Below, one piece after another: positions 9,934-52,581 of a stretch of 55,075 nucleotides of DNA (position 1 is the stretch's first letter; each line of letters opens with the position of its first letter). Under the pieces are notes generated by a model, which worked only from the letters and a program-made list of their open reading frames with translations, made no database searches and was not told the DNA's origin. The position numbers were made by a program, and so were the translations under genes. This DNA is from Chitinophagaceae bacterium (GTDB lineage: Bacteria > Bacteroidota > Bacteroidia > Chitinophagales > Chitinophagaceae): the NCBI GenBank assembly GCA_947455215.1, contig CANGNA010000026.1, forward strand, positions 1-55,075. Reading direction: 5' to 3'.

Positions 9934-11142
9934 TTATTTGTATTGCTTCATAAAGGCTGTAACGCTCTCCATTACATGTGCTATCTGCTCTTCGCTAAGG
10001 CCATGATGACATGCCAGCAACATACCACCGCGCATTACCCTGTCAGACTCTGTATAACCGCCGCTTGCCTTCTTGCACTCAACATGCTTAAAGCCCGGCT
10101 GACGCAGGATGTTGCCTGTGAACACCGTACGCGTCTGGATGTTCCTCTTTTCCAGGAATATCTGCATATCGCGACGGATGAACGGAGCACTTTCGCGGAT
10201 AGTTGATGCATATGCCAGCCAGCCGGTACGTGAATCAGGCAGTTGCTTAGGCAGGATAAAGAACTCTTCGTACTGCTCGAAGAACTTACGCATCTTCTGG
10301 TAATTAGCAGTGCGGGTGTCGATGTTCTGCTTCAGCTTATTCAGCTGAACGATACCAAAAGCAGCACCCATTTCAGATGGCTCAATGTTATATCCCGGCT
10401 CTTCAAATACGAACTTAGCGTCGTAAGGAATACCGTCAACTTCTACATTGAAGCGGTTTTCGATCTTCTCAGACTCTACGAACAGAGAAGAGCTACGGCC
10501 CCAGCTACGCAGCAGGCGGCCACGATCATAAAACGCCTCGGTGTTCACACACAACATACCACCGTTACCGGCGCAGTTGATGATGTGAGAACCATAGAAA
10601 CTGGTAGTGCTCATATCGGTAAAGCGGCCAGATGAAGAACCACCTATTTCAGCACCCAGTGTATCGGCAGAATCTTCCAGCACAAACAAGTTGTACTTAT
10701 CTGCTATAGCACGCAGGGCAGCCCAGTCGGGCAGGTTACCCATCAGGTTAGGTATCACCATCGCCTTTGTTTTTGGCGTGATCATTTCCTCTACCTTGTT
10801 AGCATCAATATTATAAGTGCCTTCTTCAACATCTACAAAAGCGGGCACCCAGCCTTTTTTTACCAGCGGGGCTACAGTTGTAGAAAAAGTGAGGGCCGGG
10901 GTAATGATCTCCGCGCCTGGCTCATAGTTCAGAAGGTCGGCTGCCAGGTAAAGCGCAGACGAGCCGCTGTTTACCATGATACCGTACTTCTTGTTGTAAA
11001 GGGCGGCAATGCGTTCTTCCATTTCGCGAACGTTTTTGCCCATCTGGGTAGATGTGCGCAGCACATTTACCACTGCTTCAATTTCCTCTTCGCCGTGTAC
11101 GGTCCTGCCGTAAGGCACGTGTATAAAATCTGATTGTACCAT
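9934..11142 (-). CDS. DegT/DnrJ/EryC1-fold enzyme with His in place of the PLP lysine; likely PMP-dependent sugar dehydratase
   Basis: 402 residues from ATG at 11142. The fold is the DegT/DnrJ/EryC1/StrS aminotransferase type: VNSGSSALYLA near residue 57, ITPALTFSTTV near 80, LEDSADTLGA near 155. In aminotransferases of this family the SFxxxK loop supplies the lysine that binds PLP. Here the loop reads SFYGSH, so residue 186 is His (codon CAC on the minus strand), followed by the usual GNGGML. Known family members with this His are ColD (GDP-4-keto-6-deoxymannose 3-dehydratase) and the E1/RfbH-type CDP-hexulose 3-dehydratases. These use PMP to remove a 3-hydroxyl. I therefore favour deoxysugar dehydratase over aminotransferase. 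It stands alone with its own terminator; sugar-nucleotide substrate unknown. Confidence 0.8.
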   Translation of the reverse strand: MVQSDFIHVPYGRTVHGEEEIEAVVNVLRTSTQMGKNVREMEERIAALYNKKYGIMVNSGSSALYLAADLLNYEPGAEIITPALTFSTTVAPLVKKGWVPAFVDVEEGTYNIDANKVEEMITPKTKAMVIPNLMGNLPDWAALRAIADKYNLFVLEDSADTLGAEIGGSSSGRFTDMSTTSFYGSHIINCAGNGGMLCVNTEAFYDRGRLLRSWGRSSSLFVESEKIENRFNVEVDGIPYDAKFVFEEPGYNIEPSEMGAAFGIVQLNKLKQNIDTRTANYQKMRKFFEQYEEFFILPKQLPDSRTGWLAYASTIRESAPFIRRDMQIFLEKRNIQTRTVFTGNILRQPGFKHVECKKASGGYTESDRVMRGGMLLACHHGLSEEQIAHVMESVTAFMKQYK

Positions 11143-38759: not shown

Positions 38760-39335
38760 ATGAGCGTACGATATATCATTACTATTCTCCTTGCGATCAC
38801 CTTTTGGTCGTGTAACAATAACCCTGATCCTAACAAGGGCATCAACCTTATAGAAAACCCTAATATTAAACTGCGTGATACCGCGTTCGAGCAATATCAT
38901 AAAGGCAATCTTTTCTCCCCTCATATTGTCAGGATAGATAACAATAAGCAGCCGGCTTACATGAAGATCGATTCGATATATTTTAATGTAAAAAGCCTGG
39001 ACAAGAATACAAGAGCTGATTATTACAAACAGGTAATTGCACTACAACCTGAAGATGAACTGGAAGCGCATCGGCGTGTATGGGGGATAAAAGAAGTGCG
39101 GGCGATGCAGCAGAGCGATGGCGGACCGGGTACCATAGTTAGCTGGACAAAAGATATCCTGGATGCAAAAAGCGGTTATTACCTTATAGAACTGAAAAGG
39201 AACGATGTTGAAGAAATGTCGCAGGTATATGGCATTTCTGTATTCCGGGTAAGATTGCATCCCGCATCAATGGAGATAGGCGATGAAAGCGGGTACTTTG
39301 TATCGCTTGAAGCATGGCGGCGCACACAGAAATAA
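38760..39335 (+). CDS. Predicted lipoprotein of unknown function
   Basis: 191 residues. Signal MSVRYIITILLAITFWSC with lipobox FWSC (Cys18). The mature protein is mixed alpha/beta with a central YYKQVIALQPEDELEAHRRVWG and a C-terminal VYGISVFRVRLHPASMEIG strand pair. I recognise no domain. It is followed after 61 bases by the YfhO-like gene in the same direction and could share its transcript, although a promoter-like TTTTACTTTG just before that gene suggests otherwise. Confidence 0.7.
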   Translation: MSVRYIITILLAITFWSCNNNPDPNKGINLIENPNIKLRDTAFEQYHKGNLFSPHIVRIDNNKQPAYMKIDSIYFNVKSLDKNTRADYYKQVIALQPEDELEAHRRVWGIKEVRAMQQSDGGPGTIVSWTKDILDAKSGYYLIELKRNDVEEMSQVYGISVFRVRLHPASMEIGDESGYFVSLEAWRRTQK

Positions 39336-39396
39336 CAACCGGACAACTGTATTTTCGGGGATTTGCTATTGTTATAAATCGTTTTTACTTTGCGGT

Positions 39397-41898
39397 ATGG
39401 CAAAACAGAAAAAGGCCGATGGGGCAAAAAAGCAAGAACAGGCTCCTGCCCCCCAACCTGCCAGGGCACCTCAACCGCAGGTATCTGCCCCTGAACAAAG
39501 AACACAAGTGAATAACCAGCTTTTAGAGAAGCTGAAAGGTAAAGAATTGCCATTGCTACTCTTTACGGCTGTATTGAGTTGCATTATCATATTCTATGAT
39601 TTCATTGCAGGAGACAAAGTATATCTGTATAAGGATATAGGTAGCGATTCTGTGAATATCTACTACCCCTGGCTGGTGCAAATAAGCGACTATATAAAAA
39701 ACAATGGCGTACCCACCTGGTCGTTCTCGCAGGGGATGGGGCAAAATATGTTTCCCTTATGGCTAGGCGATTTCTTTTCTAACCTGATCACGCTCTTTTT
39801 TAGCAAAGAGAAATTGCCGTATCTATTAGCTATTGTTGAGATAGTAAAAATAATACTCAGCAGTTTTGTGTTCTTTAAATACCTGTGCGAGCTAAAGATG
39901 AGCAGGTTTGTTGCTGGTATTGGAGGGTTTCTTTTTGCTTTTTGCGGCTATATCATACTTGGTGGTTGCTGGACGATCTTTTCATCAGAGGCACTATATG
40001 TTGCGGTGATCTTATATGGTTTTGAAAGGTGGCTTAACCATAACAAGATACTTTGGTTTGTGCTGGGTATTTGTGCACTGGCTTTTCTGCAACCATTCTT
40101 TTTATATCCATACACGCTTTTCCTTGCTGCCTACATCCCTGTTCGCTATAACGACGTAAATGACGGTCAGTGGAACAAGTTTCCATTGTTTATTGCTAAG
40201 ACAATAGGGCTTGCAGTAGTTGCTGTAGCCATTAGCGCCTACCAGCTTTTCCCAGACCTGTTGCAATATATTGAAAGCCCCAGGGTTGGCGGCGACGCAT
40301 CGCTGGTGAGTGCGTTGAAGACCCAGCCGATGTTTGGCATAACCGATCCGGCCCTGCGCTTTACCACCACATTCCGCGCATTTGGCAGCGACATGCTGGG
40401 CACAGGCAGCGATTTTAAAGGCTGGCAGAACTACCTGGAAGCGCCGCTATTCTATTGCGGTATATTGTGCCTTGTAGCTTTCCCTCAGGCATTTCTTGCC
40501 TTTAATAAAAAGCAAAAGATCGCCTGGAGCATTTTTGCGGCACTGTTCGTTCTACCCATTTTCTTCCCTTACTTCAGATACATTTTCTGGGCGTTTAGCG
40601 GTAATTACTTCAGGGCATATTCACTGGTGGTAACACTCATGTTGCTCATCTTTGCGATTAAGGGTCTTGATCATGTCATCAAAACAAAGAAGATCAATCT
40701 TATTGTGCTCGGGGTTACTGTAGCTTTCCTGCTGATGTTGCTGTTCAGCCCTGCGGCAGATTTCGAGCCTGCTATCAACCAGGGCATGCGCTCTACCTCA
40801 ACCCTGCTGGTGCTGCTGTATGCCGGCATTCTGTGGGCGTTGACCAGGGACAATCTGCGTGTGATCAGTTCTTTACTGTTGATCGTATTTTGCTTCGGAG
40901 AGATGATCTTTTACTCTTCTACGACCATTAACCAAAGAGAAAATGTTACAGGGCAAGAGCTGACCGAAAAAGTGGGCTATAACGACTACAGCATAGAAGC
41001 AATAAAATATATAAGAGACCACGATAAAGGATTTTATAGGATCAATAAAGACTACCGCTCAGGGCCGGCAATACATGCCAGTTTCAATGACGCCAAAATG
41101 CAGGGTTACTACGGCACCCAATCTTACCATTCATTCAACCAGATCAATTATGTCCGCTTTCTCGGGATCATGGGCATCATCGACACGAAAGACGAATTGC
41201 AAACACGCTGGATAAATGGATTCCTTGAACGGCCGCTGATGCTATCGATCACATCAGGAAAATATATCTTGGCAAAAAAAACCGAACCTCTACGTAAAAT
41301 GTTCGGGTACGATTCTCTGACGAAGATCGGAGACGTAAGCATATTCAGAAACAAATACTCCCAGCCATTGGCGGTAGCTTATGAGCAGGGGCTGGATGAA
41401 ACAACATTTAAAACCCTGAGCCAGGGTCAAAAGGATATTTACCTCTTCAAAGGATGTGTTATAGACTCCGGCGACAATGAGGCATCCACTGCTGTTAAGA
41501 AATACAACATAGCAGACACAGCAGTGCCAACGACCATGGACCTGTACTATCAATCGGCAGACGCACTCGCTAAAAAAGGCCTTACTATCACTCAGTTCAA
41601 AGAAGACCATATCACCGGAACCATTACCACCCAGGTATCATCAATACTGTTCTATTCGATCCCATTCGATGCAGGTTGGACAGCAAAGGTGAATGGCAAA
41701 GAAGTGAAACTGCACAGGGTGAATTGTGGTTTTATCGGCGTGGTATTACCAGCCGGCAACAATACTATTGAACTGTCGTTTACACCGCGCTACATGAAGA
41801 TGGGAGGAATGGTTTCTTTAATCTCTATTCTTGTGTTCATAGCGCTGCTGGCACTTGCCCGTAAATTTACTACGTCAAATAAACCAGCTGCGGAATAA
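39397..41898 (+). CDS. YfhO-like polytopic membrane protein (GT-C superfamily)
   Basis: 833 residues from ATG at 39397. The frame opens at 39283, overlapping the lipoprotein gene, but the internal Met begins a natural lysine/alanine/proline-rich cytosolic tail (MAKQKKADG). About 12-13 spans follow from residue 50, with a first loop (YLYKDIGSDSVNIYYPW, FSQGMGQNMFP) typical of YfhO family proteins, and a soluble C-terminal domain from about 530. Bacillus YfhO acts in cell-wall polymer glycosylation with polyprenyl-phosphate sugars; a similar role is likely here. Its TAA overlaps the next ATG by one base, placing it at the head of the sugar operon. Confidence 0.87.
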   Translation: MAKQKKADGAKKQEQAPAPQPARAPQPQVSAPEQRTQVNNQLLEKLKGKELPLLLFTAVLSCIIIFYDFIAGDKVYLYKDIGSDSVNIYYPWLVQISDYIKNNGVPTWSFSQGMGQNMFPLWLGDFFSNLITLFFSKEKLPYLLAIVEIVKIILSSFVFFKYLCELKMSRFVAGIGGFLFAFCGYIILGGCWTIFSSEALYVAVILYGFERWLNHNKILWFVLGICALAFLQPFFLYPYTLFLAAYIPVRYNDVNDGQWNKFPLFIAKTIGLAVVAVAISAYQLFPDLLQYIESPRVGGDASLVSALKTQPMFGITDPALRFTTTFRAFGSDMLGTGSDFKGWQNYLEAPLFYCGILCLVAFPQAFLAFNKKQKIAWSIFAALFVLPIFFPYFRYIFWAFSGNYFRAYSLVVTLMLLIFAIKGLDHVIKTKKINLIVLGVTVAFLLMLLFSPAADFEPAINQGMRSTSTLLVLLYAGILWALTRDNLRVISSLLLIVFCFGEMIFYSSTTINQRENVTGQELTEKVGYNDYSIEAIKYIRDHDKGFYRINKDYRSGPAIHASFNDAKMQGYYGTQSYHSFNQINYVRFLGIMGIIDTKDELQTRWINGFLERPLMLSITSGKYILAKKTEPLRKMFGYDSLTKIGDVSIFRNKYSQPLAVAYEQGLDETTFKTLSQGQKDIYLFKGCVIDSGDNEASTAVKKYNIADTAVPTTMDLYYQSADALAKKGLTITQFKEDHITGTITTQVSSILFYSIPFDAGWTAKVNGKEVKLHRVNCGFIGVVLPAGNNTIELSFTPRYMKMGGMVSLISILVFIALLALARKFTTSNKPAAE

Positions 41899-42782
41899 TG
41901 AAAAAGATACTCATCACTGGCGGCACTGGGTTCATAGGCCGTAACATTACCGAATCGTACCTTGTCAATAAGTATGAACTTGTTGCCCCGCGACGCAGCG
42001 AGCTAAACCTTGCTGACGACGACAGTATTCAACAGTACTTCGCTAAGCACAGCTTCGATGTCGTGATCCATTCGGCAGCCAAACCGGGGCACCGCAACGC
42101 GGGCGATACATCGAGCCTGTTGCTCACCAATTCCCGGATGATGTCGTGGTTGCTTAAGTACCAGGACAGATGGGGTAAATTGCTAAACATGGGCAGCGGT
42201 GCGGTATACGATATGCGCAATTATCAGCCGAAAATGAAGGAGTCGTACTTTGGCACCAACATACCGGCTGATGAGCATGGCTATAACAAATACATGTTCG
42301 GCAAACTATTGCCCACGCTGGAACATGTCTACGATTTCAGGATATTCGGCATATATGGTAAGTATGAAGATTACGCGATAAGATTTATATCAAATGCCAT
42401 CTGCAAAGCCCTGTTCGATCAGCCAATAACACTGAGGCAAAACAGGAAATTCGATTATCTGTTTATTGACGACCTGATGCCCATACTGGAGTACTTTATT
42501 GAACATGACCCTACCGATAAGGCGTTCAATATTACACCCGACAGCTCAGTTGGTCTGCTCGACATAGCGCATACTGTACAAAACATAGATGGCAATAAAG
42601 TACAAGTAAAGGTAGCGCAGGAGGGCATCGGCATGGAATATAGTGGCGATAACCGCCTGCTGCGTTCCACCATGAAAACAGTTAATTTTACCCCGATAGA
42701 GTACGGAATAAAAAAACTCTACGATTGGTATGCAGCCAATAAAGAGACATTGAATAAAGAGTTGCTCATTTCTGACAAGTAA
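41898..42782 (+). CDS. NAD-dependent nucleotide-sugar epimerase/dehydratase (extended SDR)
   Basis: 294 residues. The NAD-binding motif GGTGFIG is near residue 8, the Ser region is NMGSGAVYD and the catalytic YxxxK is in YNKYMFGK. The core is SDR, shorter than GalE/RmlB enzymes (about 330). It should act on an NDP-sugar at C4 or by 4,6-dehydration, epimerisation or reduction. It lies one base into the YfhO-like stop and five bases before the TPP enzyme, so all are translated from one message. Substrate unknown; context suggests the first or last redox step of an unusual sugar. Confidence 0.87.
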   Translation: MKKILITGGTGFIGRNITESYLVNKYELVAPRRSELNLADDDSIQQYFAKHSFDVVIHSAAKPGHRNAGDTSSLLLTNSRMMSWLLKYQDRWGKLLNMGSGAVYDMRNYQPKMKESYFGTNIPADEHGYNKYMFGKLLPTLEHVYDFRIFGIYGKYEDYAIRFISNAICKALFDQPITLRQNRKFDYLFIDDLMPILEYFIEHDPTDKAFNITPDSSVGLLDIAHTVQNIDGNKVQVKVAQEGIGMEYSGDNRLLRSTMKTVNFTPIEYGIKKLYDWYAANKETLNKELLISDK

Positions 42783-42787
42783 GACAA

Positions 42788-44584
42788 ATGATAAAAGTTA
42801 CCGAATATATAGCCCAGCGATTAAAAGAGTATGGTGTGGAACACGTATTTATGGTTACGGGCGGCGGAGCCATGCACCTGAACGATTCCCTGGGTAAACA
42901 TCTTACCTACATTTGCAACCACCACGAACAGGCCTGCGCCATAGCTGCCGAAGGATATGCCCGCACCGGCAACAGGCTGGCCGTTGTGAACGTGACCACC
43001 GGCCCCGGTGGGCTGAATGCACTGAACGGTGTAATGGGACAGTGGACAGATTCTGTTCCTGTACTTTACTTGTCGGGCCAGGTGAAATTTGAGACCACCA
43101 TACATGCCTGCCCGGAAATAAAAGGATTAAGGCAACTGGGAGACCAGGAGGTGGACATCATAAAAGTGGTCTCTCCTATCACTAAGTTCTCCAAAATGAT
43201 AACGGATGCCAACGACATACGTTACTACCTGGAGAAGGCCATTCATGAAGCAACAACCGGCCGCCCGGGTCCCGTTTGGCTGGATGTGCCCATGAATATA
43301 CAGGGAGCTATTATTGATGAGACACAACTAAAGGGCTACACGCCCGAAGCTGCTAATACAACTACAGGACTGGAAAACATACCGGCAATAGTTGAAAAGC
43401 TGAAGGCCGCTAAACGACCAGTGATACTTGCCGGCCATGGCATCCGCATAGCAGGGGCAGTAAAAGACCTGATGGATCTGCTTGCTGTTGCAGACATACC
43501 GGTGGTAACTACTTTTAATGGTATAGACGTCATCGGCGAGGACCATAAAAACTATATTGGCCGCTTTGGTACTCTGGGCAACCGTGCCGGCAACTTCTGC
43601 GTGCAAAATGCAGATGTACTGCTGACCATAGGCACCAGGAACAACATAAGGCAGGTAAGCTACAACTGGGAGTATTTTGCCCGGGAAGCTTATAAGATAA
43701 TTGTAGACATAGACCCGGCTGAACTGCAAAAACCTACGGTAAAACCAGACATGCCTGTTTGTGCCGATGCCGGAGCATTCCTTAAGGCTTTAGTAGCCGA
43801 AGCGGGGAACTCTTTGGCAGGAAAAGACGCAGAATGGCTTGCCTGGAATAAAGTAAGAAAAAACAAATATCCAACTGTTCTGCCAGCCTACCTGCAGGCG
43901 ACAGATGGCGTACACCCCTATGTATTTATGGATATATTAGGAAATTGCCTGCCTGAAGGTGCGGTTTGCGTAACAGCAGATGGTACTGCATGTGTAGGCC
44001 CATTCCAGGCGATGCCGGTAAAAAGTAAGTTCCGCATTTTCTGGAACAGTGGCTGTGCCTCTATGGGCTATGAGCTGCCCGCAGCGGTAGGTGCCTGCGT
44101 GGCCAACGGGATGAAGGATGTGGTGTGTATTGCCGGTGATGGCAGCATACAAATGAACATACAGGAGCTGCAGACCATCATACACTACCAGATGCCGGTA
44201 AAGATCATTTACCTGAACAACGACGGCTACATATCTATAAAACAAACACAGGATGGCTTCTTTGGCGGCCACCGAGTAGGCAGCGACCCACGGTCGGGCG
44301 TAAGCTTCCCGGACATTACCAAACTCGGCAATGCGTACGGGTTCACCATGGCGCGGATCACAGGGCATACCGATCTTGAAAAACAAATAAAAGATTTCCT
44401 GGCAACACCCGGTCCTGCCATATGCGAGGTGATACTTACGGAAGATTATAAATTCCTGCCAAAAGTATCATCAAAAAAGCTGGACGATGGCCGTATGGTA
44501 TCGGCACCGCTGGAAGACCTGGCACCGTTTATGGACAGGGAGGAATTCCGCAGTAATCTGTTTATTAAAGAGGTAAATTCTTAA
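42788..44584 (+). CDS. Thiamine-diphosphate enzyme of the acetolactate synthase family, polysaccharide-cluster type
   Basis: 598 residues with the three domains of this family: N-terminal PYR (catalytic Glu47 in YICNHHEQACA), central (about 190-335, VILAGHGIRIAG) and C-terminal PP domain with GDGSIQMN (G450-G452) and NND, which bind ThDP-Mg. Length fits IlvB-like catalytic subunits, but no regulatory subunit (ilvN) or branched-chain amino-acid gene is nearby. Related precedents include YerE, which adds an acetyl branch to a 4-keto-deoxysugar, and IolD, which opens a cyclohexanedione ring. In this operon an activity on sugar or cyclitol carbon skeletons is more likely than acetolactate synthesis. 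That is inference. Confidence 0.88.
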   Translation: MIKVTEYIAQRLKEYGVEHVFMVTGGGAMHLNDSLGKHLTYICNHHEQACAIAAEGYARTGNRLAVVNVTTGPGGLNALNGVMGQWTDSVPVLYLSGQVKFETTIHACPEIKGLRQLGDQEVDIIKVVSPITKFSKMITDANDIRYYLEKAIHEATTGRPGPVWLDVPMNIQGAIIDETQLKGYTPEAANTTTGLENIPAIVEKLKAAKRPVILAGHGIRIAGAVKDLMDLLAVADIPVVTTFNGIDVIGEDHKNYIGRFGTLGNRAGNFCVQNADVLLTIGTRNNIRQVSYNWEYFAREAYKIIVDIDPAELQKPTVKPDMPVCADAGAFLKALVAEAGNSLAGKDAEWLAWNKVRKNKYPTVLPAYLQATDGVHPYVFMDILGNCLPEGAVCVTADGTACVGPFQAMPVKSKFRIFWNSGCASMGYELPAAVGACVANGMKDVVCIAGDGSIQMNIQELQTIIHYQMPVKIIYLNNDGYISIKQTQDGFFGGHRVGSDPRSGVSFPDITKLGNAYGFTMARITGHTDLEKQIKDFLATPGPAICEVILTEDYKFLPKVSSKKLDDGRMVSAPLEDLAPFMDREEFRSNLFIKEVNS

Positions 44585-44632
44585 AATTTACTACTTTAGT
44601 GGTTCATTTAATAATATAAAACACACCCCAAC

Positions 44633-45454
44633 GTGAATCTATTAGAAAGGAAAATGGTTGACCAATTGAAGGATTTGAAAGAAAATCACTTCGCAATTGG
44701 CATAAAAGCTGAGTTTGAAGCTGAAGGAACCCGTTTGGAAGAAGCCCTGCGCCTGAAGGAAGTTATTACAAAAGCAGGCCTGGACCTGACTATTAAAATA
44801 GGTGGCTGCGAAGCATTGAAGGACATGTATGATTCGCGTTCTATCGGTGTTACACGGATAGTAGGCCCCATGATAGAAACACCATATGCGCTGAAGAAAT
44901 TTTTGGCATGCGCTAACCTAGCTTTCCCTGAAGATGAAAGAAAAGAAGTTGATTTCCTGATCAATGTAGAAACTATCTCTACTGTTAAGAATTTCGACGA
45001 AATGCTGCAGCTGCCTAACATCAGCGAACTGAAAGGTGTTGTAGTAGGCCGCGTGGACATGACAGGTTCTATGGGGCTGACACGAAACGACATCAACTCT
45101 GACGCTATCCTGAAGATATGTGACGAGGTATTGGTAAAAGCCAAGAAGTTCAACGGTATGGAGTGCGTAATAGGAGGCGGTGTTTCTGCTGATTCGCTTC
45201 CATTCTTCGACAACCTGACGGCTAACCACCTCGATAAGTTCGAAACACGTAAGGTATTGTTCGATGCGCGCCAGGCAACTTTAGCCAATGGTGGTGATAA
45301 GGGCATACTGAAAGCAGTAGGCTTCGAACTGATGTGGCTGAAGAATAAGCGTAACTTCTACGGTATGATCTACAAAGAAGATGAGAACCGCATAGAAATG
45401 CTGCAGGCACGTTACGATAAGCTGATAGCACAAGCAGGTGGCAAATATGAATAA
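44633..45454 (+). CDS. HpcH/HpaI-type aldolase
   Basis: 273 residues, GTG start at 44633; ATG eight codons later is the alternative. TIM-barrel class II aldolase family: IKAEFEAEGTR, KIGGCEALKD, GVTRIVGPMIETPYA, metal ligand E113 in NVETIST and D142 in VVGRVDMTGSMG, which replaces the usual GPxDLS loop. Family members join or cleave pyruvate (or oxaloacetate) and an aldehyde. It lies 48 bases after the TPP gene and overlaps the SDR gene by 8 bases (ATGAATAA). In this setting it could form a 2-keto-3-deoxy sugar acid or feed the cyclase. Substrate unknown. Confidence 0.87.
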   Translation: MNLLERKMVDQLKDLKENHFAIGIKAEFEAEGTRLEEALRLKEVITKAGLDLTIKIGGCEALKDMYDSRSIGVTRIVGPMIETPYALKKFLACANLAFPEDERKEVDFLINVETISTVKNFDEMLQLPNISELKGVVVGRVDMTGSMGLTRNDINSDAILKICDEVLVKAKKFNGMECVIGGGVSADSLPFFDNLTANHLDKFETRKVLFDARQATLANGGDKGILKAVGFELMWLKNKRNFYGMIYKEDENRIEMLQARYDKLIAQAGGKYE

Positions 45455-46112
45455 AACGGTATTGATAACAGGAGCCAGCCGGGGAATTGGCAAAGCTTGT
45501 GCAGAAAAATTCCGGGAATACGGATATAATGTACTGGCCCCCACCCGAACGGAGATGGACCTGGCCTCTGAAAATAGCATACATGATTATATTGGGAGCA
45601 TCACTGCTCCCATTCATGCTTTGGTGAACAACGCAGGGATCAATCCATTGGCTACAGTAGGCAATCTGAACTTTGATGATGCGCACGCGATGATGGCCAC
45701 CAACTTCTGGGCACCGGTATTGCTCACCAATCTACTGGCCCCCAGGATGAAGGAGCAATGCTATGGCCGTATCGTCAATATCAGCTCCATATGGAGTGGC
45801 GTTACCAAGAGCGGCAGATCTATGTATGCATCATCTAAGGCGGCTATCAATGCGTTTACACGCACCGCTGCTGTAGAATACGCCGAATACAATGTACTGG
45901 TGAATGCTGTTGCCCCCGGCTATGTGAACACAGAACTGACGCAGATCAACAACACACCGGAACAAATAGAAACCATTAAGAACAATTTACCTATCCGCAG
46001 ACTTGCGGAGCCATCAGAAATAGCAGAACTGATCTTCTTTATGGCATCAGAAAAAAATTCTTTTGTTACAGGGCAGACCATTTTTGCAGACGGAGGATAT
46101 AGTATAATATGA
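45447..46112 (+). CDS. Short-chain dehydrogenase/reductase
   Basis: 221 residues from ATG at 45447, within the last codons of the aldolase gene; a GTG at 45438 is also in frame. Classical SDR: TGASRGIG cofactor motif, NNAG, Ser in NISSIW and the catalytic YASSK. NADH or NADPH-dependent oxidoreduction of a hydroxyl or ketone on a small carbohydrate or cyclitol is expected. It overlaps the cyclase-like gene by ATGA (46109-46112). FabG-like by family, but the operon makes a fatty-acid role improbable. Confidence 0.88.
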   Translation: MNKTVLITGASRGIGKACAEKFREYGYNVLAPTRTEMDLASENSIHDYIGSITAPIHALVNNAGINPLATVGNLNFDDAHAMMATNFWAPVLLTNLLAPRMKEQCYGRIVNISSIWSGVTKSGRSMYASSKAAINAFTRTAAVEYAEYNVLVNAVAPGYVNTELTQINNTPEQIETIKNNLPIRRLAEPSEIAELIFFMASEKNSFVTGQTIFADGGYSII

Positions 46113-47185
46113 CCGCAGTAAAGAACATAACATCGAGTGTACACAACTACACTATCAGCTTCGAGGCATCTGTTGATTTTCTGAAAGATCTCATCAACGA
46201 CCCGGCAGCTATATATATTGTAGATGAACAGGTGTTCCACATATACAAGGCTCAACTCAGCGACCTGCAGCACAGCAAGCGCTTGATATTGTTAAAAGCT
46301 GTCGAAGAAAACAAAACCCTCGCAGCAGCCGAGCATGTCTACGACAAGATAATTGAGTTGAAGCCCACCAAGAAAACCAAAATAGTTTCAATAGGCGGTG
46401 GTATCACGCAGGATGTCAGCGGGTTTGTGGCCAGTACATTTTATCGCGGGCTGAAGTGGATATACGTACCCACTACCCTGCTGGCACAGGCCGATAGCTG
46501 CATGGGTAGCAAAACATCACTCAATTATAAATCTTATAAAAATATACTGGGCACGTTCTACCCGCCGCACGAAATATACATCAGCGCGGCCTTTACAGCC
46601 ACGCTGAAGGAAGAAGATTACTACAGCGGTCTTGGCGAAGTAGCTAAACTACATACCATGGGCGGGCAAAAGACGCTCGACTACCTATTCTCCATACTTC
46701 CGGGCATCCATGGCCGCGATGAAGCTGTTATTACTGCAGCAACAAAATCATCGCTCGATATTAAATGGACGTATATGGAGCACGACGAGTTTGATCAGGG
46801 AATAAGGAACATGCTCAACTTCGGTCACGAATATGGCCACGCCATAGAGACCGCGACAAATTATACCATACCGCATGGACAAGCCGTGATAATTGGCATG
46901 ATAATGGCTAACGATGTGGCGGTGAGAAAAGGGCAGCTATCTGCTGCGCTCAACGAGCGACTCAATACCATGTACTTCAGCATGCTTAAGTGCGACTACA
47001 AACAGTTGGCTATTACCGATACCAACCTGGTAATAGGCGCCATGAAGCAAGACAAGAAACGCGCAGGAACCGGCCTTCCGCTTATTATGATGAACAATGA
47101 TTTTGTTTTCAGCAAGATCACAGACCTGACAGAGGCTGAGGCCACAGAAACACTTACCTATTTTCAAAACACATATTGCAGGTAA
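46109..47185 (+). CDS. 3-Dehydroquinate synthase-like sugar-phosphate cyclase
   Basis: 358 residues. The AroB fold is clear: IGGGITQDVSGFVASTFYRG (NAD/phosphate region), VPTTLLAQADS, GSKTSLN, KNILGTFYPPHE. Zinc ligands fit E177 (SGLGEVAK), H240 (LNFGHEYGH) and H256 (IPHGQAV), with the same spacing as in AroB. K135, K144, R233, N237, H244 and the C-terminal DKK also match catalytic positions. The family closes 7-carbon sugar phosphates into carbocycles (dehydroquinate from DAHP, epi-valiolones from sedoheptulose-7-phosphate). Being between an SDR and a glycosyltransferase, it is probably a dedicated cyclase, not the housekeeping AroB; that is inferred from context. Confidence 0.87.
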   Translation: MTAVKNITSSVHNYTISFEASVDFLKDLINDPAAIYIVDEQVFHIYKAQLSDLQHSKRLILLKAVEENKTLAAAEHVYDKIIELKPTKKTKIVSIGGGITQDVSGFVASTFYRGLKWIYVPTTLLAQADSCMGSKTSLNYKSYKNILGTFYPPHEIYISAAFTATLKEEDYYSGLGEVAKLHTMGGQKTLDYLFSILPGIHGRDEAVITAATKSSLDIKWTYMEHDEFDQGIRNMLNFGHEYGHAIETATNYTIPHGQAVIIGMIMANDVAVRKGQLSAALNERLNTMYFSMLKCDYKQLAITDTNLVIGAMKQDKKRAGTGLPLIMMNNDFVFSKITDLTEAEATETLTYFQNTYCR

Positions 47186-47188
47186 CAC

Positions 47189-48136
47189 TTGGAACCCACT
47201 AAAAAACATATCTCCGTAATAACTGCCTGCTACAACGAGGAAGAAAATGTAGCCGCGCTTATTAAAGCAGTAAGGGCCGTTTTCGAAAAACTGCCTCAAT
47301 ATACCTATGAGCATGTTTTTATAGACAACTCTTCCGTCGATAATACAGTAGCTATATTGAAAGAAATAGCCGCTACCGACAAAAACGTAAAAGTAATTGT
47401 CAATGCCCGCAACTTTGGCCATATCCGCTCACCGTTTCACGGCATGCTTCAATGCAAAGGTGACGCAGTGATCTCGATGGTAGCCGATTTTCAGGACCCA
47501 CCTGAGATGATCGCTAGTTTCCTGGCCAAATGGGACGAGGGCTATAAGATCGTCATTGGCGTAAAAAAGCAAAGCGAAGAAAATCGATTGATGTTCATGA
47601 TCCGGAGCTTCTTTTATAATTTGCTCAGCAAGATGTCGGATACGGGCGAAAAACCTATAAAAAATTTTACTGGCTTTGGCTTATACGACAAACAATTTAT
47701 CGATGTTATAAGAGAACTGGAAGATCCTTATCCTTACTTCAGGGGAATGATCACTGATCTCGGATTTGGCAGATGTGAAATCGATTATATACAACGAGAC
47801 AGGGGAAAGGGGAAGAGTAAGAACAACTTTTTTACTCTTTACGACCTTGCCATGTTAGGCTTCACCAACCACTCAAAATTACCGTTAAGATTATCGGTAT
47901 TTATTGGTATATTTTCTTCAATAATTAGCTTAATAGTAGCAGTAGGCTATTTTATTTATAAGCTGATCTATTGGGACAGGTTTTCAGTGGGCATGGCTCC
48001 ATTAGTAATTGGAGTTTTTTTCTTTTCTTCAGTTCAGCTGTTTTTTATTGGAATTATAGGTGAATATATAGGAGCTATTCACACACAGGTGCGGAAACGG
48101 CCATTAGTTATTGAAAAAGAACGGATCAATTTTTAA
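47189..48136 (+). CDS. GT2 glycosyltransferase with C-terminal membrane spans (DPM1/GtrB-like)
   Basis: 315 residues, beginning at TTG (47189) three bases after the cyclase stop; the next Met would remove the N-terminal strand, so TTG is the best start. GT2 core: ISVITACYNEEENVAAL, NARNFGHIRSPFHGML, SMVADFQDPPEM (DxD-like), FTGFGLYDKQF. Two spans near residues 238-260 and 272-295 follow, as in GtrB/ArnC proteins that load a sugar onto polyprenyl phosphate. It could load the sugar made by the operon for later use by the YfhO-like GT-C protein. Its stop overlaps the convergent methyltransferase stop by four bases. Confidence 0.9.
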   Translation: MEPTKKHISVITACYNEEENVAALIKAVRAVFEKLPQYTYEHVFIDNSSVDNTVAILKEIAATDKNVKVIVNARNFGHIRSPFHGMLQCKGDAVISMVADFQDPPEMIASFLAKWDEGYKIVIGVKKQSEENRLMFMIRSFFYNLLSKMSDTGEKPIKNFTGFGLYDKQFIDVIRELEDPYPYFRGMITDLGFGRCEIDYIQRDRGKGKSKNNFFTLYDLAMLGFTNHSKLPLRLSVFIGIFSSIISLIVAVGYFIYKLIYWDRFSVGMAPLVIGVFFFSSVQLFFIGIIGEYIGAIHTQVRKRPLVIEKERINF

Positions 48137-49371
48137 TGATCCGTTCTTCTTAACACCCGAGAAAATCCCACAATATCCGGAAAATGATTCTTCTCTTTGA
48201 ATCTTGCTTCAATGCTGTTCCTGATCGGCATTTCATGGATCAGAGATGATACCACAATTGTAAATTTCTCTTTCTCATATTCCTGCAACAATTCGTCACC
48301 ATGTTGAACGGCAATGCGACCGATTGTATTTCCGACATTGATCTTATTATTGTCAAAAAACTTAAGTTTAGTTCTGTGTGCCAATTCGTATGTACTCAGT
48401 AATTTGAAAGAAAATTGCCCCATGCCATACAATGCAATTGTGGTGTCTTGAGGTATCTCCTTTAACAAATCTGCAATCTCCGCAAACATCCTCTTCGATT
48501 CAAAAATATAGTTACCGATCGCCTTTGATATACTTGTGTCAAATTCGAACGCAAAATTGTTTACTTCAGCACCTTTCCTGGAAAGTGCATAAACTGCATG
48601 ATAATCCTGATCTGATGCTATTTTAAAAACCTTTTCCCCGATCTGTATTTCTTCAAAACCTTTGGATAACACCAGGTTTCTGAATGAATTAACTGAAAAA
48701 TGATTTATATGCTCACTATTGAACTCTTGCAGTGGAGCATGAATAACCTTGTAATAATGCTGAGCATCGGGACACTCAATATAAGCCACCCCTCCATCCA
48801 CCAATAGATGACGGACAATGGCCATTGCCTTATCAATATCAAAAACATGTTCGAGAACGTGCGAAAGGATAACGACATCAAATTTGCCAATATTATCCGG
48901 AATGTCGAATAATGAATATTGGAGCACTTCACACCCAACTTCTTCGCGAGCCATAACAACGCAGGCATGCGAAGGATCAACTCCTACGACATTCTCAAAA
49001 CCCAGGTTTTTCAACTCTTTCAGAAGTCCTCCGTTTGCACACCCCAGGTCTAAAATACGAGCCGACTTATTCGCAATATTTTGATCTAAAAATTTCGCAA
49101 CGGCAAATAATCTATCTCTATCATTTTGGCTATACCCGCTGCCTGTTGACACAACTTTGTCCTCATATTTAGATAACTCAGTATAATAAATATCCAGTTG
49201 ACCTTGTGTCACATTTGTATTTGCATAAATGAAGCCGCACTTGCCGCATTGAACAAGCGCATATCCCCCATTCATCGGATGGCCGTCAAATAAAGTGAAC
49301 CTTATTTGTTCTAAAATCTTCTTTTCATCCGAGCTACAGATCGGACATAACCTGTCGTGAGTATTAATCAT
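48133..49371 (-). CDS. SAM-dependent methyltransferase with N-terminal zinc motif, sugar C-methyltransferase-like
   Basis: 412 residues. The N-terminus has two CxxC pairs (C9-C12, C42-C45) forming a zinc site. A class I SAM domain follows (ILDLGCANGG near 93-102; VILSHVLEHV). A C-terminal Rossmann-like domain (IALYGMGQFS near 312, VVSSLIHEM) completes the TylC3/NovU-like layout known from sugar C-methyltransferases that act on NDP-4-keto sugars. It converges on the sugar operon with a four-base stop overlap and may modify the same sugar. The DNA is visibly AT-richer than the TPP-to-cyclase genes, which may indicate separate acquisition. Substrate and exact subfamily are uncertain. Confidence 0.82.
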   Translation of the reverse strand: MINTHDRLCPICSSDEKKILEQIRFTLFDGHPMNGGYALVQCGKCGFIYANTNVTQGQLDIYYTELSKYEDKVVSTGSGYSQNDRDRLFAVAKFLDQNIANKSARILDLGCANGGLLKELKNLGFENVVGVDPSHACVVMAREEVGCEVLQYSLFDIPDNIGKFDVVILSHVLEHVFDIDKAMAIVRHLLVDGGVAYIECPDAQHYYKVIHAPLQEFNSEHINHFSVNSFRNLVLSKGFEEIQIGEKVFKIASDQDYHAVYALSRKGAEVNNFAFEFDTSISKAIGNYIFESKRMFAEIADLLKEIPQDTTIALYGMGQFSFKLLSTYELAHRTKLKFFDNNKINVGNTIGRIAVQHGDELLQEYEKEKFTIVVSSLIHEMPIRNSIEARFKEKNHFPDIVGFSRVLRRTDH

Positions 49372-49420: not shown

Positions 49421-52400
49421 CTATCGCTTTATCAAAAGCTGCCCTTTCAATATCTTATCGTCCACCTTTACTAAATAGAAATAGGTACCATCAGGCAACT
49501 TCCCTCCATCCCAATTATTGTTGTATCCTACCTCGGCAAACACTACGTTTCCCCATTTATCAAAAACCTTCACATCTCCGGCTGGATAGTGCTCGATATT
49601 ATCTATCAGCCATCGCTCATTATACCCATCTCCGTTGGGTGTTATTACGTTGTGTACTACAACAATATCACAACTATCCTCATTGATCAACACATTATTG
49701 CGGACTACACATAAATTAGCATCAGTTATTGTCAACGTATAAAGCCCCTGCTGTAAGCCCGTAAGAGACAAACCAGTACCTCCCGTGGACCATAAGTAAG
49801 AATACGGAGTCTGCCCTCCTGCCACGTTAATGATAGCTACCGCACCATTGCCTGCATTACACCTGTCTGGTTCAATGGTCAACTCTGCCGTAATGATCCC
49901 TGGCATATCCAGTACATAAACACCAGTATCCTTACAGCCGCTGTTGATATCAACGACAGTAACAGAATAACTACCGGCGGCCACTCCCGATATTGATGGA
50001 GTAACACTTCCTTCAGACCACTGATATTGATAAAAACCGGATCCACCGGTTATAGTAACCGCAACTCCACCATTGCTGTTTCCATTACATTTTATAGACG
50101 TAATATCTGCACTCAACAATAATGGGCTGTTTGGAGATATTACTAGCGGGACGGTAGTAAGATTGTTACAGCCATTGCCATCAGTCACCGAGTAAGTAAT
50201 AATAGTACTTCCAGCCGACACTGGAGTCACTACTCCAGATGCATCTATGGTGGCCACCGATGGCGTACTGCTGCTCCAAATGCCTCCTGTAATTACATCA
50301 TTTACTGTAACAGTTCCACCAGAACACAATGTCGACACCGGGCTTGTTATTGTTCCGGCATCAGGCAAAGAAAGAACCGTTACCAATTGTGTATCGGCAG
50401 CGGCACCACAACTGTTGGCAACTGAATATGAAATAACAGAACTACCTGAGGATATTCCCCAAACTACACCCGCCAAAGCATCGATCGTAGCCACGGCAAT
50501 ATTAGAACTACTCCACGAGCCTCCGCTTGCAGGGTCTACCAAAGTGATTTGTTGCCCGGCGCATACCTGGTGCAGTCCGCTGATGACCCCGGGAGCAGGT
50601 AACGGCAATACTGTTACCATCTGTGTATCTGTAGCTGTGCCACAACTGTTAGTCAGCGTATACGATATAATTGCAGTACCGCTGCTAACCCCTCCTGAAA
50701 TACCCGAGGCAACAGTTGCTATACCTACATTACTGCTACTCCACGTGCCTCCTAAAACTACTCCGGAAAGAGATATAACCGACCCAATACATACAGAAGC
50801 AGGCCCAGTTATGGCACCCGCGTAAGGAATAGTACTCACCGTAAGCATTTGCGTATCAGTAGCGCTCCCGCAAGCATTACTTACCGAATAAGAGATTACA
50901 GACATTCCTGTAACAATACCACCAGCCAGGCCCGAAGTGCTATTTATAGTAGCTATGGAAGGACTACTACTCGTCCATGTGCCACCGGATACACCTGACG
51001 TAAAATTACCTGTACTGCCAGGACATAAAAATGCCGGACCAGATACCACTCCGGCATACGGCGAAGGAGCGACGGTAACAAGTTGGGTATCAGTTGAACT
51101 GCCACAAGCATTACTAACCGTATAAGATATGATGGAGTTTCCAGGGGAAACACCACCAGCCAAGCCTGAAGCGCTATTGATGGTTGCAACTGATGGATTA
51201 CTACTGATCCATACACCACCGCCAATAGTTGCAGCAAGGATGTGACTGCTGCCTATACAAAATAATGGAGATCCAGATATTAGACCTGCCGAAGGCAAAG
51301 GAAGGATATTAAGTAATTGTGTATCTGTAGCAGTGCCGCAGGCATTGCTGACGGTATAGGATATGATTGAGCTCCCCGAAGCAACTCCACCGGACAATCC
51401 GGAAGCACTATTAATAGTAGCGACCGACGGACTGCTGCTAACCCAACTTCCAGAGCCAGGAGAACCGACAAAACTGACCGAACCACCTACACATGCACTG
51501 TGACTGCCCGAAATTGAGGCGCTTGGCGCGCTTGTTACAGTTATAGACTGAGTATCCGAAATAGAACTGCATCCGTTTACAATTGAGTAGGATATAATGG
51601 CTGTACCTGCCGATATGCCAGTAATGACCCCGGCAGTAACAGATACAATTGCCGAATTACTGCTACTCCATGCACCTCCTGAAGGGGTAGCAGTTAACGT
51701 AGCCAATGTAGACTGACAGATAGCATTGGTGCCAGTTATCAATGGAGTGCCACTACCGGAGGAAGACCCTCCACCTGTCCATATCTGAAGCACTTCAGTA
51801 GCTGTTAGTTCCCTATTCCATACTCCGATATCATCAAGGTAACCAGTCCAGCTATCATTGTATCCAGGTAAATAATAAATATTACCACCTATCCCATGCC
51901 AGGAGCCGGAAGGCGTGTTAAAGGAGCTTGTCGGCAAATAGACACTGGTAGCGACCAGATTGCCATCCAGATATAATTTTACAGCAGATGATCCGCCACC
52001 AGTAGCCGGATACGTAGCAGTAAGGTTGTGCCAGCAAGAGTCAACCGTATAGGATGCAACGCGTACATATCCATTTACATATTCAACGCCGACAAAAGCA
52101 TCCGCTGCGAAGAGATTAAACCTACCGGCAAAAATATTATTTCCCCAGCCAAAGAACGCTCGTCCACCACCGGCATAGGGAAGCTTATATTTATAAAAAA
52201 GGCTTATTGTCCTGGCACCATTACCCGTAGGGAAATTATTAACTGGTATGTCACCCTCTCCGCTACCATTACCTTTGTAGCTGCTGGAAGCTATACCATA
52301 ACGGTTCGTTCCGTAAGCTACTGAACCATAAGCGACCCCATTATTACCGAAACCACTAACATCATTAAGATTACCATCCAAGGGGTAATAGGCTACCAGA

Positions 52401-52483
52401 CCGGCAGTAGGCACATAGGAGGGCACTTGGCACCAACTGCTACAGGCCAGAAAAGTCGACAAAAAAGCAACAATATATCTCAT
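49421..52483 (-). CDS. Secreted LamG / Ig-like / SprB-repeat protein with type B T9SS (gliding-motility CHU_C) sorting domain
   Basis: 1020 residues from ATG at 52483; TTG at 52513 is in frame but precedes the signal peptide (MRYIVAFLSTFLACSSWCQ). Residues about 25-240 are a LamG/concanavalin-like domain (GLVAYYPLDGNLNDVSG, GYLDDIGVWNREL). Seven Ig-like modules of about 77 residues follow, each with two Cys and GG-x-W-S-S. Two SprB-type repeats come next (SIKCNGNSNGGVAV, RCNAGNGAVAI). The end (VHNVITPNGDGYNERW, VFDKWGNVVF, LPDGTYFYLVKV) is the CHU_C/type B sorting domain. Expected to be a surface adhesin secreted by T9SS. It parallels the protein at 1738-6330 but with a different head and tail. 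Confidence 0.88.
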   Translation of the reverse strand: MRYIVAFLSTFLACSSWCQVPSYVPTAGLVAYYPLDGNLNDVSGFGNNGVAYGSVAYGTNRYGIASSSYKGNGSGEGDIPVNNFPTGNGARTISLFYKYKLPYAGGGRAFFGWGNNIFAGRFNLFAADAFVGVEYVNGYVRVASYTVDSCWHNLTATYPATGGGSSAVKLYLDGNLVATSVYLPTSSFNTPSGSWHGIGGNIYYLPGYNDSWTGYLDDIGVWNRELTATEVLQIWTGGGSSSGSGTPLITGTNAICQSTLATLTATPSGGAWSSSNSAIVSVTAGVITGISAGTAIISYSIVNGCSSISDTQSITVTSAPSASISGSHSACVGGSVSFVGSPGSGSWVSSSPSVATINSASGLSGGVASGSSIISYTVSNACGTATDTQLLNILPLPSAGLISGSPLFCIGSSHILAATIGGGVWISSNPSVATINSASGLAGGVSPGNSIISYTVSNACGSSTDTQLVTVAPSPYAGVVSGPAFLCPGSTGNFTSGVSGGTWTSSSPSIATINSTSGLAGGIVTGMSVISYSVSNACGSATDTQMLTVSTIPYAGAITGPASVCIGSVISLSGVVLGGTWSSSNVGIATVASGISGGVSSGTAIISYTLTNSCGTATDTQMVTVLPLPAPGVISGLHQVCAGQQITLVDPASGGSWSSSNIAVATIDALAGVVWGISSGSSVISYSVANSCGAAADTQLVTVLSLPDAGTITSPVSTLCSGGTVTVNDVITGGIWSSSTPSVATIDASGVVTPVSAGSTIITYSVTDGNGCNNLTTVPLVISPNSPLLLSADITSIKCNGNSNGGVAVTITGGSGFYQYQWSEGSVTPSISGVAAGSYSVTVVDINSGCKDTGVYVLDMPGIITAELTIEPDRCNAGNGAVAIINVAGGQTPYSYLWSTGGTGLSLTGLQQGLYTLTITDANLCVVRNNVLINEDSCDIVVVHNVITPNGDGYNERWLIDNIEHYPAGDVKVFDKWGNVVFAEVGYNNNWDGGKLPDGTYFYLVKVDDKILKGQLLIKR
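50130..51752 (-). repeat. Array of seven in-frame Ig-like module repeats (second protein)
   Basis: Seven tandem modules of about 230 bp inside the LamG/SprB protein, recognisable by recurring SVATINSASGL and TDTQ segments. Modules 2 and 3 share the longest identical stretches. Boundaries are approximate. Confidence 0.7.
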
Positions 52484-52581
52484 AGATAAAGAGCAGGGAT
52501 AAATTTTCGACAATTTAAAATATATTTTTAATAATTATCAACTTTCCTTTACTAACAACCCAAATATTTCACAAACGGCGA

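Follow-up and report, generated by a model that had tools for sequence, protein, structure and literature searches.

An operon predicted to make a C4-branched deoxyhexose with its branch closed to a cyclohexane

Our analysis of a 55,075-nucleotide contig from a Chitinophagaceae bacterium (GenBank assembly GCA_947455215.1, contig CANGNA010000026.1; the whole contig is called the window below) centers on an operon of six close-packed rightward genes, 41898-48136, adjoining the gene of a YfhO-type glycosyltransferase. We propose, with a probability of roughly 0.6, that this operon makes a cytidine diphosphate (CDP)-activated C4-branched deoxyhexose whose branch is closed to a cyclohexane. A preliminary description of this DNA had suggested that a thiamine diphosphate (ThDP) enzyme, an aldolase, a short-chain dehydrogenase/reductase (SDR) and a sugar-phosphate cyclase together build either a carbocyclic or a C-branched sugar. 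The direction of that suggestion is supported, as the quartet recurs in other phyla, and the evidence points to both outcomes, a sugar that is C-branched first and carbocyclic afterward. The description did not extend to the subclass of the ThDP enzyme, the frequent company of CDP-3,6-dideoxyhexose genes, the exchange of cyclase for phosphatase or the substitution by NeuB.

The reactions of the proposed pathway, their order and the identity of the aldehyde are deduced from gene content, enzyme families, conservation, a swap of neighboring genes and pocket residues. CDP-glucose would be formed and converted to a CDP-4-keto-6-deoxy (and 3,6-dideoxy) sugar by RfbF, RfbG and an RfbH/ColD-like His-dehydratase. 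An HpcH/HpaI-like aldolase would join pyruvate, or phosphoenolpyruvate (PEP), to a phosphorylated aldehyde, for which erythrose 4-phosphate is the likeliest candidate, and so give a 2-keto-3-deoxy-7-phospho acid resembling 3-deoxy-D-arabino-heptulosonate 7-phosphate (DAHP). The YerE/ErwE-type ThDP enzyme would decarboxylate this acid and attach the remaining six-carbon acyl unit at the 4-keto carbon of the CDP-sugar. The branch would then be DAHP with the sugar in place of the carboxylate, and the cyclase, by chemistry modeled on 3-dehydroquinate synthesis, a step toward the aromatic amino acids in plants and microbes, would oxidize it, eliminate phosphate and close it by an aldol reaction to a cyclohexanone, whose ring ketone the SDR would reduce. 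A family 2 glycosyltransferase (GT2) would load the sugar on polyprenyl phosphate for transfer by the YfhO protein. In sister loci, a phosphatase would replace ring closure and reduction and leave an open, caryophyllose-like branch. Given a 3,6-dideoxy acceptor, the predicted free sugar is C12H22O8 (mass 294.131; residue 276.121).

C-branched sugars of the YerE class are already known, and the ring-closing variant would be the new part. In yersiniose A synthesis in Yersinia pseudotuberculosis, the ThDP enzyme YerE decarboxylates a 2-oxo acid and joins the remainder to the ketone carbon of CDP-3,6-dideoxy-4-ketoglucose, but its donor is pyruvate, whose two-carbon unit forms the branch (PMC12247030), whereas here we expect a longer phosphorylated donor supplied by an aldolase, followed by a cyclase. 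ErwE (erwiniose) and MMAR_2332 (caryophyllose) are closer in that they take longer hydroxylated 2-oxo acids; ErwE refuses pyruvate and prefers donors such as 4-hydroxy-2-oxopentanoate (PMC12247030). That paper mentions no cyclase for the ErwE and caryophyllose pathways, the term ‘dehydroquinate’ occurring 0 times in its main text. An excerpt of PMC5706390 gives caryophyllose as 3,6-dideoxy-4-C-(D-altro-1,3,4,5-tetrahydroxyhexyl)-D-xylo-hexose. It is like the sugar proposed here in having a six-carbon C4 branch, a similar oxygen pattern and a skeleton of the kind that pyruvate and a C4 aldehyde should give, but its branch is open and lacks the terminal oxygen. The bradyrhizose O-antigen cluster of Bradyrhizobium ORS285 likewise serves a carbocycle-bearing bacterial sugar, but an excerpted source describes 11 genes there, among them one for a dTDP-glucose 4,6-dehydratase.

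The literature yielded no account of a cyclase in a YerE-like branched-sugar pathway, in a search that was not exhaustive and cannot prove absence. To our knowledge, there is no example of a surface sugar with a polyhydroxycyclohexane C-C-joined to C4 of a dideoxyhexose, nor are YerE-type branching and ring closure by dehydroquinate synthase (DHQS) known to have met before. If the proposal is true, it joins these two enzyme worlds and predicts a new class of monosaccharide, defined in mass and skeleton. It would also allow a substrate to be assigned to TIGR04425, an AroB-related family still named ‘putative’, make the intermediate testable through a natural swap of cyclase and phosphatase, and possibly provide a new C-C bond-forming enzyme for biocatalysis.

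Enzymes of the operon

Among sequences in the PDB, the ThDP enzyme is best matched by 8rph (395 bits over residues 2-587), and the next match, an acetolactate synthase, scores 244 bits. This entry is JanthE, which belongs to the YerE-like enzymes (PMC12188165). The window's enzyme falls below the acetolactate synthase cut-off of TIGR00118 (364.7 vs 538 bits). Its HHEQ at 45, GDG at 450 and NND at 477 are presumably the ThDP motifs, with the catalytic glutamate in the first; FLPK and PLEDL are also present, and the C-terminal PLEDL-like motif, found by one pattern in 34 of 65 relatives, is no family signature. With the TIGR00118 model, no other enzyme was found in the window's genome, and the best ilvC match there reaches 24 bits against a cut-off of 226, which makes a role of this enzyme in branched-chain amino acid synthesis unlikely. 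An ordinary acetolactate synthase was rejected because the enzyme lies under that family's cut-off and nearer to JanthE, in a genome with no ilvC over cut-off; by its sequence, it is of the YerE/JanthE kind.

Among decarboxylases, no subclass other than the YerE-like lyases is known to accept isolated ketones, and more than 200 of these lyases have been found via gene-cluster similarity, the sugar being unknown for most (PMC12247030). The enzyme of the window would, by analogy, decarboxylate a 2-oxo acid and attach the resulting acyl unit at the 4-keto carbon of a CDP-deoxysugar. Because 4-hydroxy-2-oxo acids, the donors of the ErwE type, are aldol products of pyruvate, the neighboring aldolase has an obvious role.

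The cyclase scores 394.8 bits on TIGR04425 (cut-off 400), on which relatives reach 425 and 398.7 bits, and 256.9 bits on the aroB model TIGR01357 (cut-off 305). We rejected an ordinary AroB, since the genome's own AroB is encoded elsewhere, on contig C35, and is over cut-off, and since the cyclases form a separate group: in a tree, one fully supported branch divides 27 of them (the window's and those of 26 loci) from 24 AroB sequences. For DHQS of Staphylococcus aureus, an excerpt of PMC6262012 lists 11 residues as making up the DAHP pocket. Placed by motif and spacing, with the S. aureus sequence outside the alignment, their counterparts in the window's cyclase are D129, K135, N145, E177, K180, K219, R233, N237, H240, H244 and K316 (or K317), and all 11 are identical in 27/27 cyclases and 24/24 AroB. 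The two groups differ at position 229 (D in 27/27 cyclases vs E in 24/24 AroB), at position 137 (S in 27/27 vs G in 19 and A in 5) and at position 131 (C in 27/27 vs S in 16 and A in 8), with a near-difference at position 99 (I vs V in 22 and I in 2). The cyclase is thus like AroB in family, metal ligands and every listed pocket residue, but it stands in a separate group, is coupled to an SDR and is set in a glycan operon.

Because all 11 pocket residues are kept, the substrate very likely has a DAHP core, that is, a hemiketal carbonyl, a CH2, three hydroxylated carbons and a CH2-O-phosphate. Such a core would call for a four-carbon aldehyde phosphate as the aldol acceptor, and in turn for a six-carbon branch after decarboxylative coupling. 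The preliminary description had the cyclase act on a 7-carbon sugar phosphate; the enzyme family stands, but in place of a free sugar phosphate we prefer a DAHP-like branch. A free sedoheptulose-type phosphate was dropped as the default substrate, because the pocket is of the DAHP kind and a SIS isomerase appeared solely in the second setting described next. The SDR accompanies the cyclase in 23/23 informative loci (defined below), the cyclase never occurring without it, and we infer that it reduces the ring ketone.

An SDR with a TIGR04425-type cyclase also occurs in a second setting, loci L150-L153 (genomes G099, G185, G139 and G393), without the ThDP enzyme or this aldolase. All four cyclases there carry H for K180 and F for L236. 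Pfam domains in L150 comprise a SIS_2 isomerase, a Gfo/Idh dehydrogenase, a 2-hydroxyacid dehydrogenase, a CTP_transf_3 domain (of the type that makes cytidine monophosphate (CMP)-sugars) and YhcH/DUF386, and a clear HpcH/HpaI aldolase is present in L152 and L153. This setting possibly yields a CMP-activated carbocycle.

The AlphaFold model of the aldolase (pLDDT 95.5) finds its nearest solved folds, by Foldseek, in class II pyruvate aldolases of the HpaI type (TM ~0.53, 12% identity), followed by pyruvate kinases. Pyruvate or PEP is therefore a likely, but not certain, donor, and the aldolase is thought to supply a phosphorylated 2-keto-3-deoxy acid. By eye, acidic residues occupy the presumed metal positions as in HpaI/HpcH enzymes, but K55 stands at the position that we take to be Arg70 of HpaI. 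K55, E113 and D142 are the same in all 39 sequences compared; the roles assigned to them are a guess, made by eye.

The cyclase was found in 11/395 genomes, of which six hold this aldolase; the other five loci are L150-L153 and L154. In L154, the gene order is rfbF, rfbG, rfbH, a reductase, an epimerase-like gene, the ThDP enzyme, a methyltransferase, the SDR and the cyclase, followed by a NeuB-family gene (PF03102, 121.9 bits). Another NeuB gene (147 bits) occurs in L168, from a genome (G062) that holds the ThDP enzyme without the aldolase, in the order rfbF, rfbG, rfbH, neuB, a gene for a 198-residue protein (HAD-like by eye, with no Pfam match), the ThDP enzyme and the epimerase-like gene. 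The products of NeuB-type enzymes, formed from PEP, are 2-keto-3-deoxy acids. The synthase and the aldolase, unrelated but with a like product, seem interchangeable on the evidence of these two loci.

Distribution and the swap of cyclase and phosphatase

A phylum sample of 296 genomes was searched for the aldolase, the ThDP enzyme and RfbH. The aldolase occurs in nine: the window's own genome, seven of one family code (45-50% identical) and G077, whose match (E 2.5e-18, 31% identity) was set aside as distant. At E <= 1e-130, the ThDP enzyme also occurs in nine, namely the eight aldolase genomes, the window's included, and G062 (Fisher test, 7e-15).

A wider profile scan with the aldolase gave 102 relatives, of which the best 80 were kept as loci. 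Two (L090 and L093) were dropped because no aldolase open reading frame (ORF) was called, leaving 78; 12 of these lack a same-strand gene for the ThDP enzyme within 4.5 kb, and nine have less than 1.5 kb on one side, which leaves 57 informative loci. The closest aldolase relatives come from Chitinophagaceae, ‘Flavobacteriales’ and Bacteroidetes metagenome-assembled genomes. Among the best 80 of 102, loci span Bacteroidota, Chlorobi, Elusimicrobia, Gastranaerophilales and kin, Margulisiibacteriota, Lentisphaerae, Verrucomicrobia, Planctomycetota, Patescibacteria groups, Leptolyngbya and several proteobacterial groups, although most relatives are metagenome-assembled genomes, so that single taxonomic placements may reflect contamination. 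The cyclase-bearing loci carry seven phylum labels in the aldolase tree. The preliminary description had proposed conservation of the quartet of ThDP enzyme, aldolase, SDR and cyclase as its test, and the quartet is indeed kept as a unit in other phyla. Four loci (L094, L095, L096 and L108) hold ~50% identical relatives of the aldolase and no ThDP enzyme gene of this kind within 4.5 kb, and the aldolase family may have a second use besides this partnership.

In the 57 informative loci, the SDR and cyclase largely alternate with a HAD-type gene: 21 hold SDR and cyclase only, 26 HAD only, two both and eight neither (Fisher test, 4e-7). Representatives support two HAD kinds by Pfam, HAD-IIA and HAD_2. 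A third kind of 137-140 residues (L037, L041 and L091) is HAD by eye only, that of L037 having no Pfam match, and without this kind the counts become 21, 24, 2 and 10 (Fisher test, 3e-6). The HAD gene lies within 300 bases of the aldolase gene in 25 of the 26 loci and 1.1 kb away in L104; L113, counted among the eight with neither, holds a different HAD_2 gene.

Labels of the two kinds were followed on a tree of aldolases with 49 rows (27 HAD, with L113 so labeled, and 22 cyclase, among them the window; loci that have both kinds or none were excluded) and on a tree of ThDP enzymes with 47 rows. They change 12 times on each, at least six changes on the aldolase tree and at least eight on the ThDP enzyme tree being forced by well-supported branches. 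These changes indicate that an aldolase and a ThDP enzyme of common descent feed two fates. The natural meaning of the swap would be a phosphorylated intermediate, which is either hydrolyzed or used by an enzyme that loses phosphate, like DHQS.

Taken together, these observations make it, in our estimate, an even bet that the operon represents a portable module, present in seven or more named phyla, whose AroB-related cyclase closes the branch of a nucleotide-activated sugar to a polyhydroxycyclohexane C-C-joined to C4 of a dideoxyhexose. The phosphorylated intermediate would be shunted to an open chain wherever SDR and cyclase are exchanged for any of several phosphatases, and the acid precursor would come from an HpaI-like aldolase or a NeuB-type synthase.

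Two kinds of locus fall outside this alternation. In L038 and L089, a HAD_2-type gene accompanies the cyclase and SDR, which would mean that a second phosphate is removed there or that both fates coexist. L052, L075, L076, L077 and L081 have adjacent genes for the aldolase and the ThDP enzyme and neither a cyclase nor a recognized phosphatase, perhaps because the donor is unphosphorylated or the phosphatase is encoded elsewhere.

The acceptor sugar and competing explanations

RfbF, RfbG and RfbH make CDP-3,6-dideoxy-4-ketohexose. At least one of them is encoded in 37 of the 57 informative loci (17/21 cyclase-only and 16/26 HAD-only) and all three in 22 (11/21 and 8/26). RfbH is over cut-off in 19/296 genomes of the phylum sample, in five of the seven aldolase genomes other than the window's own vs 14/288 of the others (Fisher test, 1e-5). 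The window's genome has rfbF (366.6 bits) and rfbG (423.7 bits), both over cut-offs, on contig C1 (76272-78677; 9273-11677 of L035), where they are followed by an rfbC-like gene, so named by sequence reading, apart from the rest of the pathway. The window itself encodes a DegT enzyme with SFYGSHI at the aligned position of the pyridoxal phosphate lysine, His thus replacing Lys, which we take to be a mark of sugar 3-dehydratases such as E1 and ColD; it is 47% identical to the enzyme encoded beside RfbG in L105, a locus with the ThDP enzyme and aldolase. Among nine informative near relatives, L039 has rfbF-rfbG-rfbH behind the operon, and L042 has rfbF, rfbG and an rfbH clipped where the stretch ends. 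An RNase Z-like metallo-beta-lactamase gene of no obvious role sits amid rfbF, rfbG and rfbH in L014 (13479-14231, on the same contig as L106), L098, L107 and L111, which are Chlorobi loci plus one of Patescibacteria.

Several observations count against the proposed pathway, and some of them favor another explanation. The genes of the acceptor are the plainest case: rfbF and rfbG of the window's genome lie on a different contig, no RfbH is over cut-off in that genome, seven of the nine near relatives show none of the three genes over 165 bits within 10 kb, and 20 of the 57 informative loci have none within the examined stretch. The branch might instead be built on CDP-4-keto-6-deoxyglucose, with its 3-hydroxyl kept, or on another 4-ketosugar, the genome's RfbH-like enzyme being non-canonical. 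The missing RfbH, the rfbC-like gene behind rfbF-rfbG and the 20 loci all suit such an acceptor, but the His-for-Lys DegT enzyme, with its counterpart beside RfbG in L105, and the rfbF-rfbG-rfbH genes of the close relative L039 argue for a 3,6-dideoxy sugar. We consider a different acceptor unlikely, though something to be reckoned with.

The main point against ring closure on the sugar is R233. The corresponding arginine of the S. aureus enzyme, Arg235, is presumably the residue that binds the carboxylate of DAHP, and its retention suits a substrate that still bears a carboxylate. The cyclase could then act before, or apart from, the ThDP enzyme: the aldolase product, DAHP or an isomer, would become a 3-dehydroquinate-like acid and, through the SDR, a quinate-like decoration of the glycan, while the ThDP enzyme makes a yersiniose-like sugar from pyruvate. 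The full conservation of the listed pocket and the existence of SDR-cyclase pairs without the ThDP enzyme and this aldolase in L150-L153 agree with this scheme, which nevertheless leaves unexplained why cyclase and HAD genes replace each other beside closely related aldolases and ThDP enzymes. It also sits poorly with the coincidence of aldolase and ThDP enzyme in 8/8 genomes of the sample (the distant G077 aside) and with the preference of ErwE, a YerE-like enzyme with long donors, for aldol products; near the quartet, where no systematic search for one was made, no gene for an acyl-activating enzyme was apparent. We judge a quinate-like decoration quite improbable, and it is the retained R233 that keeps it in consideration.

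That ordinary shikimate, acetolactate or pyruvate-pathway enzymes came together by chance in a glycan locus is scarcely credible. The families are those of AroB, acetohydroxyacid synthase and HpaI, but the genome's AroB is encoded elsewhere, ilvC is absent over cut-off, the ThDP enzyme is far nearer to JanthE than to acetohydroxyacid synthases, cyclases and AroB fall on opposite sides of a fully supported branch, and the quartet is kept across many phyla.

The remaining difficulties for the branched and ring-closed sugar concern the swap and the aldolase. Labels are somewhat clustered on the trees, with 12 changes vs shuffled means of ~16, and corrected for kinship the swap comes down to eight independent pairs, 4.9 with it, 0.1 against it and 3.0 uninformative (median sign-test p 0.0625). 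Besides the two loci with both genes and the eight with neither, the locus L037, whose aldolase comes closest to that of the window (92% identical), has only the HAD-like gene of 140 residues without a Pfam match, and a HAD gene of 212-215 residues stands between the epimerase and ThDP enzyme genes both in L038, which has the cyclase, and in L041, which does not. The 12 of 78 aldolase loci without a nearby gene for the ThDP enzyme, some of them clipped by contig ends, and the distant kinship of the aldolase with HpaI (~12% identity) belong here as well.

Gene layout and neighboring features

The genome assembly comprises 118 contigs (4.2 Mb), the window being contig C26. ORF calling, with the SDR taken from an inner ATG (the longest frame opens at GTG 45438), reproduced the six genes of the preliminary description together with their order, strands and junctions; from the YfhO frame onward, the latter are a 1-base overlap, 5 bases, 48 bases, an 8-base overlap, a 4-base overlap and 3 bases. 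The putative C-methyltransferase it had seen converging on the end of the operon is borne out as a methyltransferase by its Pfam family (Table 1).

Table 1. Features of the window discussed in the text
Feature	Coordinates	Strand	Evidence and remarks
YfhO-family membrane glycosyltransferase	39283..41898	+	PF09586 240.9 bits; true start probably internal to frame
NAD(P)-dependent epimerase/reductase, extended SDR	41898..42782	+	PF01370 85.5 bits; GGTGFIG, YxxxK motifs
YerE/JanthE-like ThDP carboligase (putative)	42788..44584	+	TPP_enzyme_N/M/C; best PDB sequence 8rph
Divergent HpcH/HpaI-superfamily aldolase	44633..45454	+	PF03328, weak, 30 bits vs cut-off 25
Short-chain dehydrogenase/reductase (SDR)	45447..46112	+	PF13561 (adh_short_C2) 160 bits; GASRGIG, YASSK motifs
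AroB-like sugar-phosphate cyclase, TIGR04425 kind	46109..47185	+	DHQ_synthase + DHQS_C; TIGR04425 394.8 bits
GT2, PgfS/ArnC kind	47189..48136, TTG start	+	PF00535 (Glycos_transf_2) 89.5 bits
Converging S-adenosylmethionine methyltransferase	48133..49371	-	PF13489 (Methyltransf_23) 81.9 bits
RfbH/ColD-like DegT enzyme, candidate sugar 3-dehydratase	9934..11142	-	NF011936 301.9 bits vs cut-off 423; 31 kb from operon

The GT2 lies under the cut-offs of the named families (NF047588 PgfS, 182 vs 500 bits; ArnC, 121 vs 529 bits) and is likely a polyprenyl-phosphate sugar transferase. The YfhO protein, whose similarity to PgfM2/PgfM1 is far under cut-off in NCBIfam, is a likely user of polyprenyl-phosphate-sugar, which makes loading by the one and transfer by the other plausible. 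The epimerase-like gene has a strong match in 39 of the 57 informative loci and perhaps encodes a keto reductase. The methyltransferase is accessory to some loci, with relatives in L013, L017, L038 and L041. Beyond it, at 49421-52513 on the reverse strand, lies a gene for a surface-type protein of 1030 residues with many similar repeats and, by eye, the look of a Bacteroidetes-type C-terminal sorting signal.

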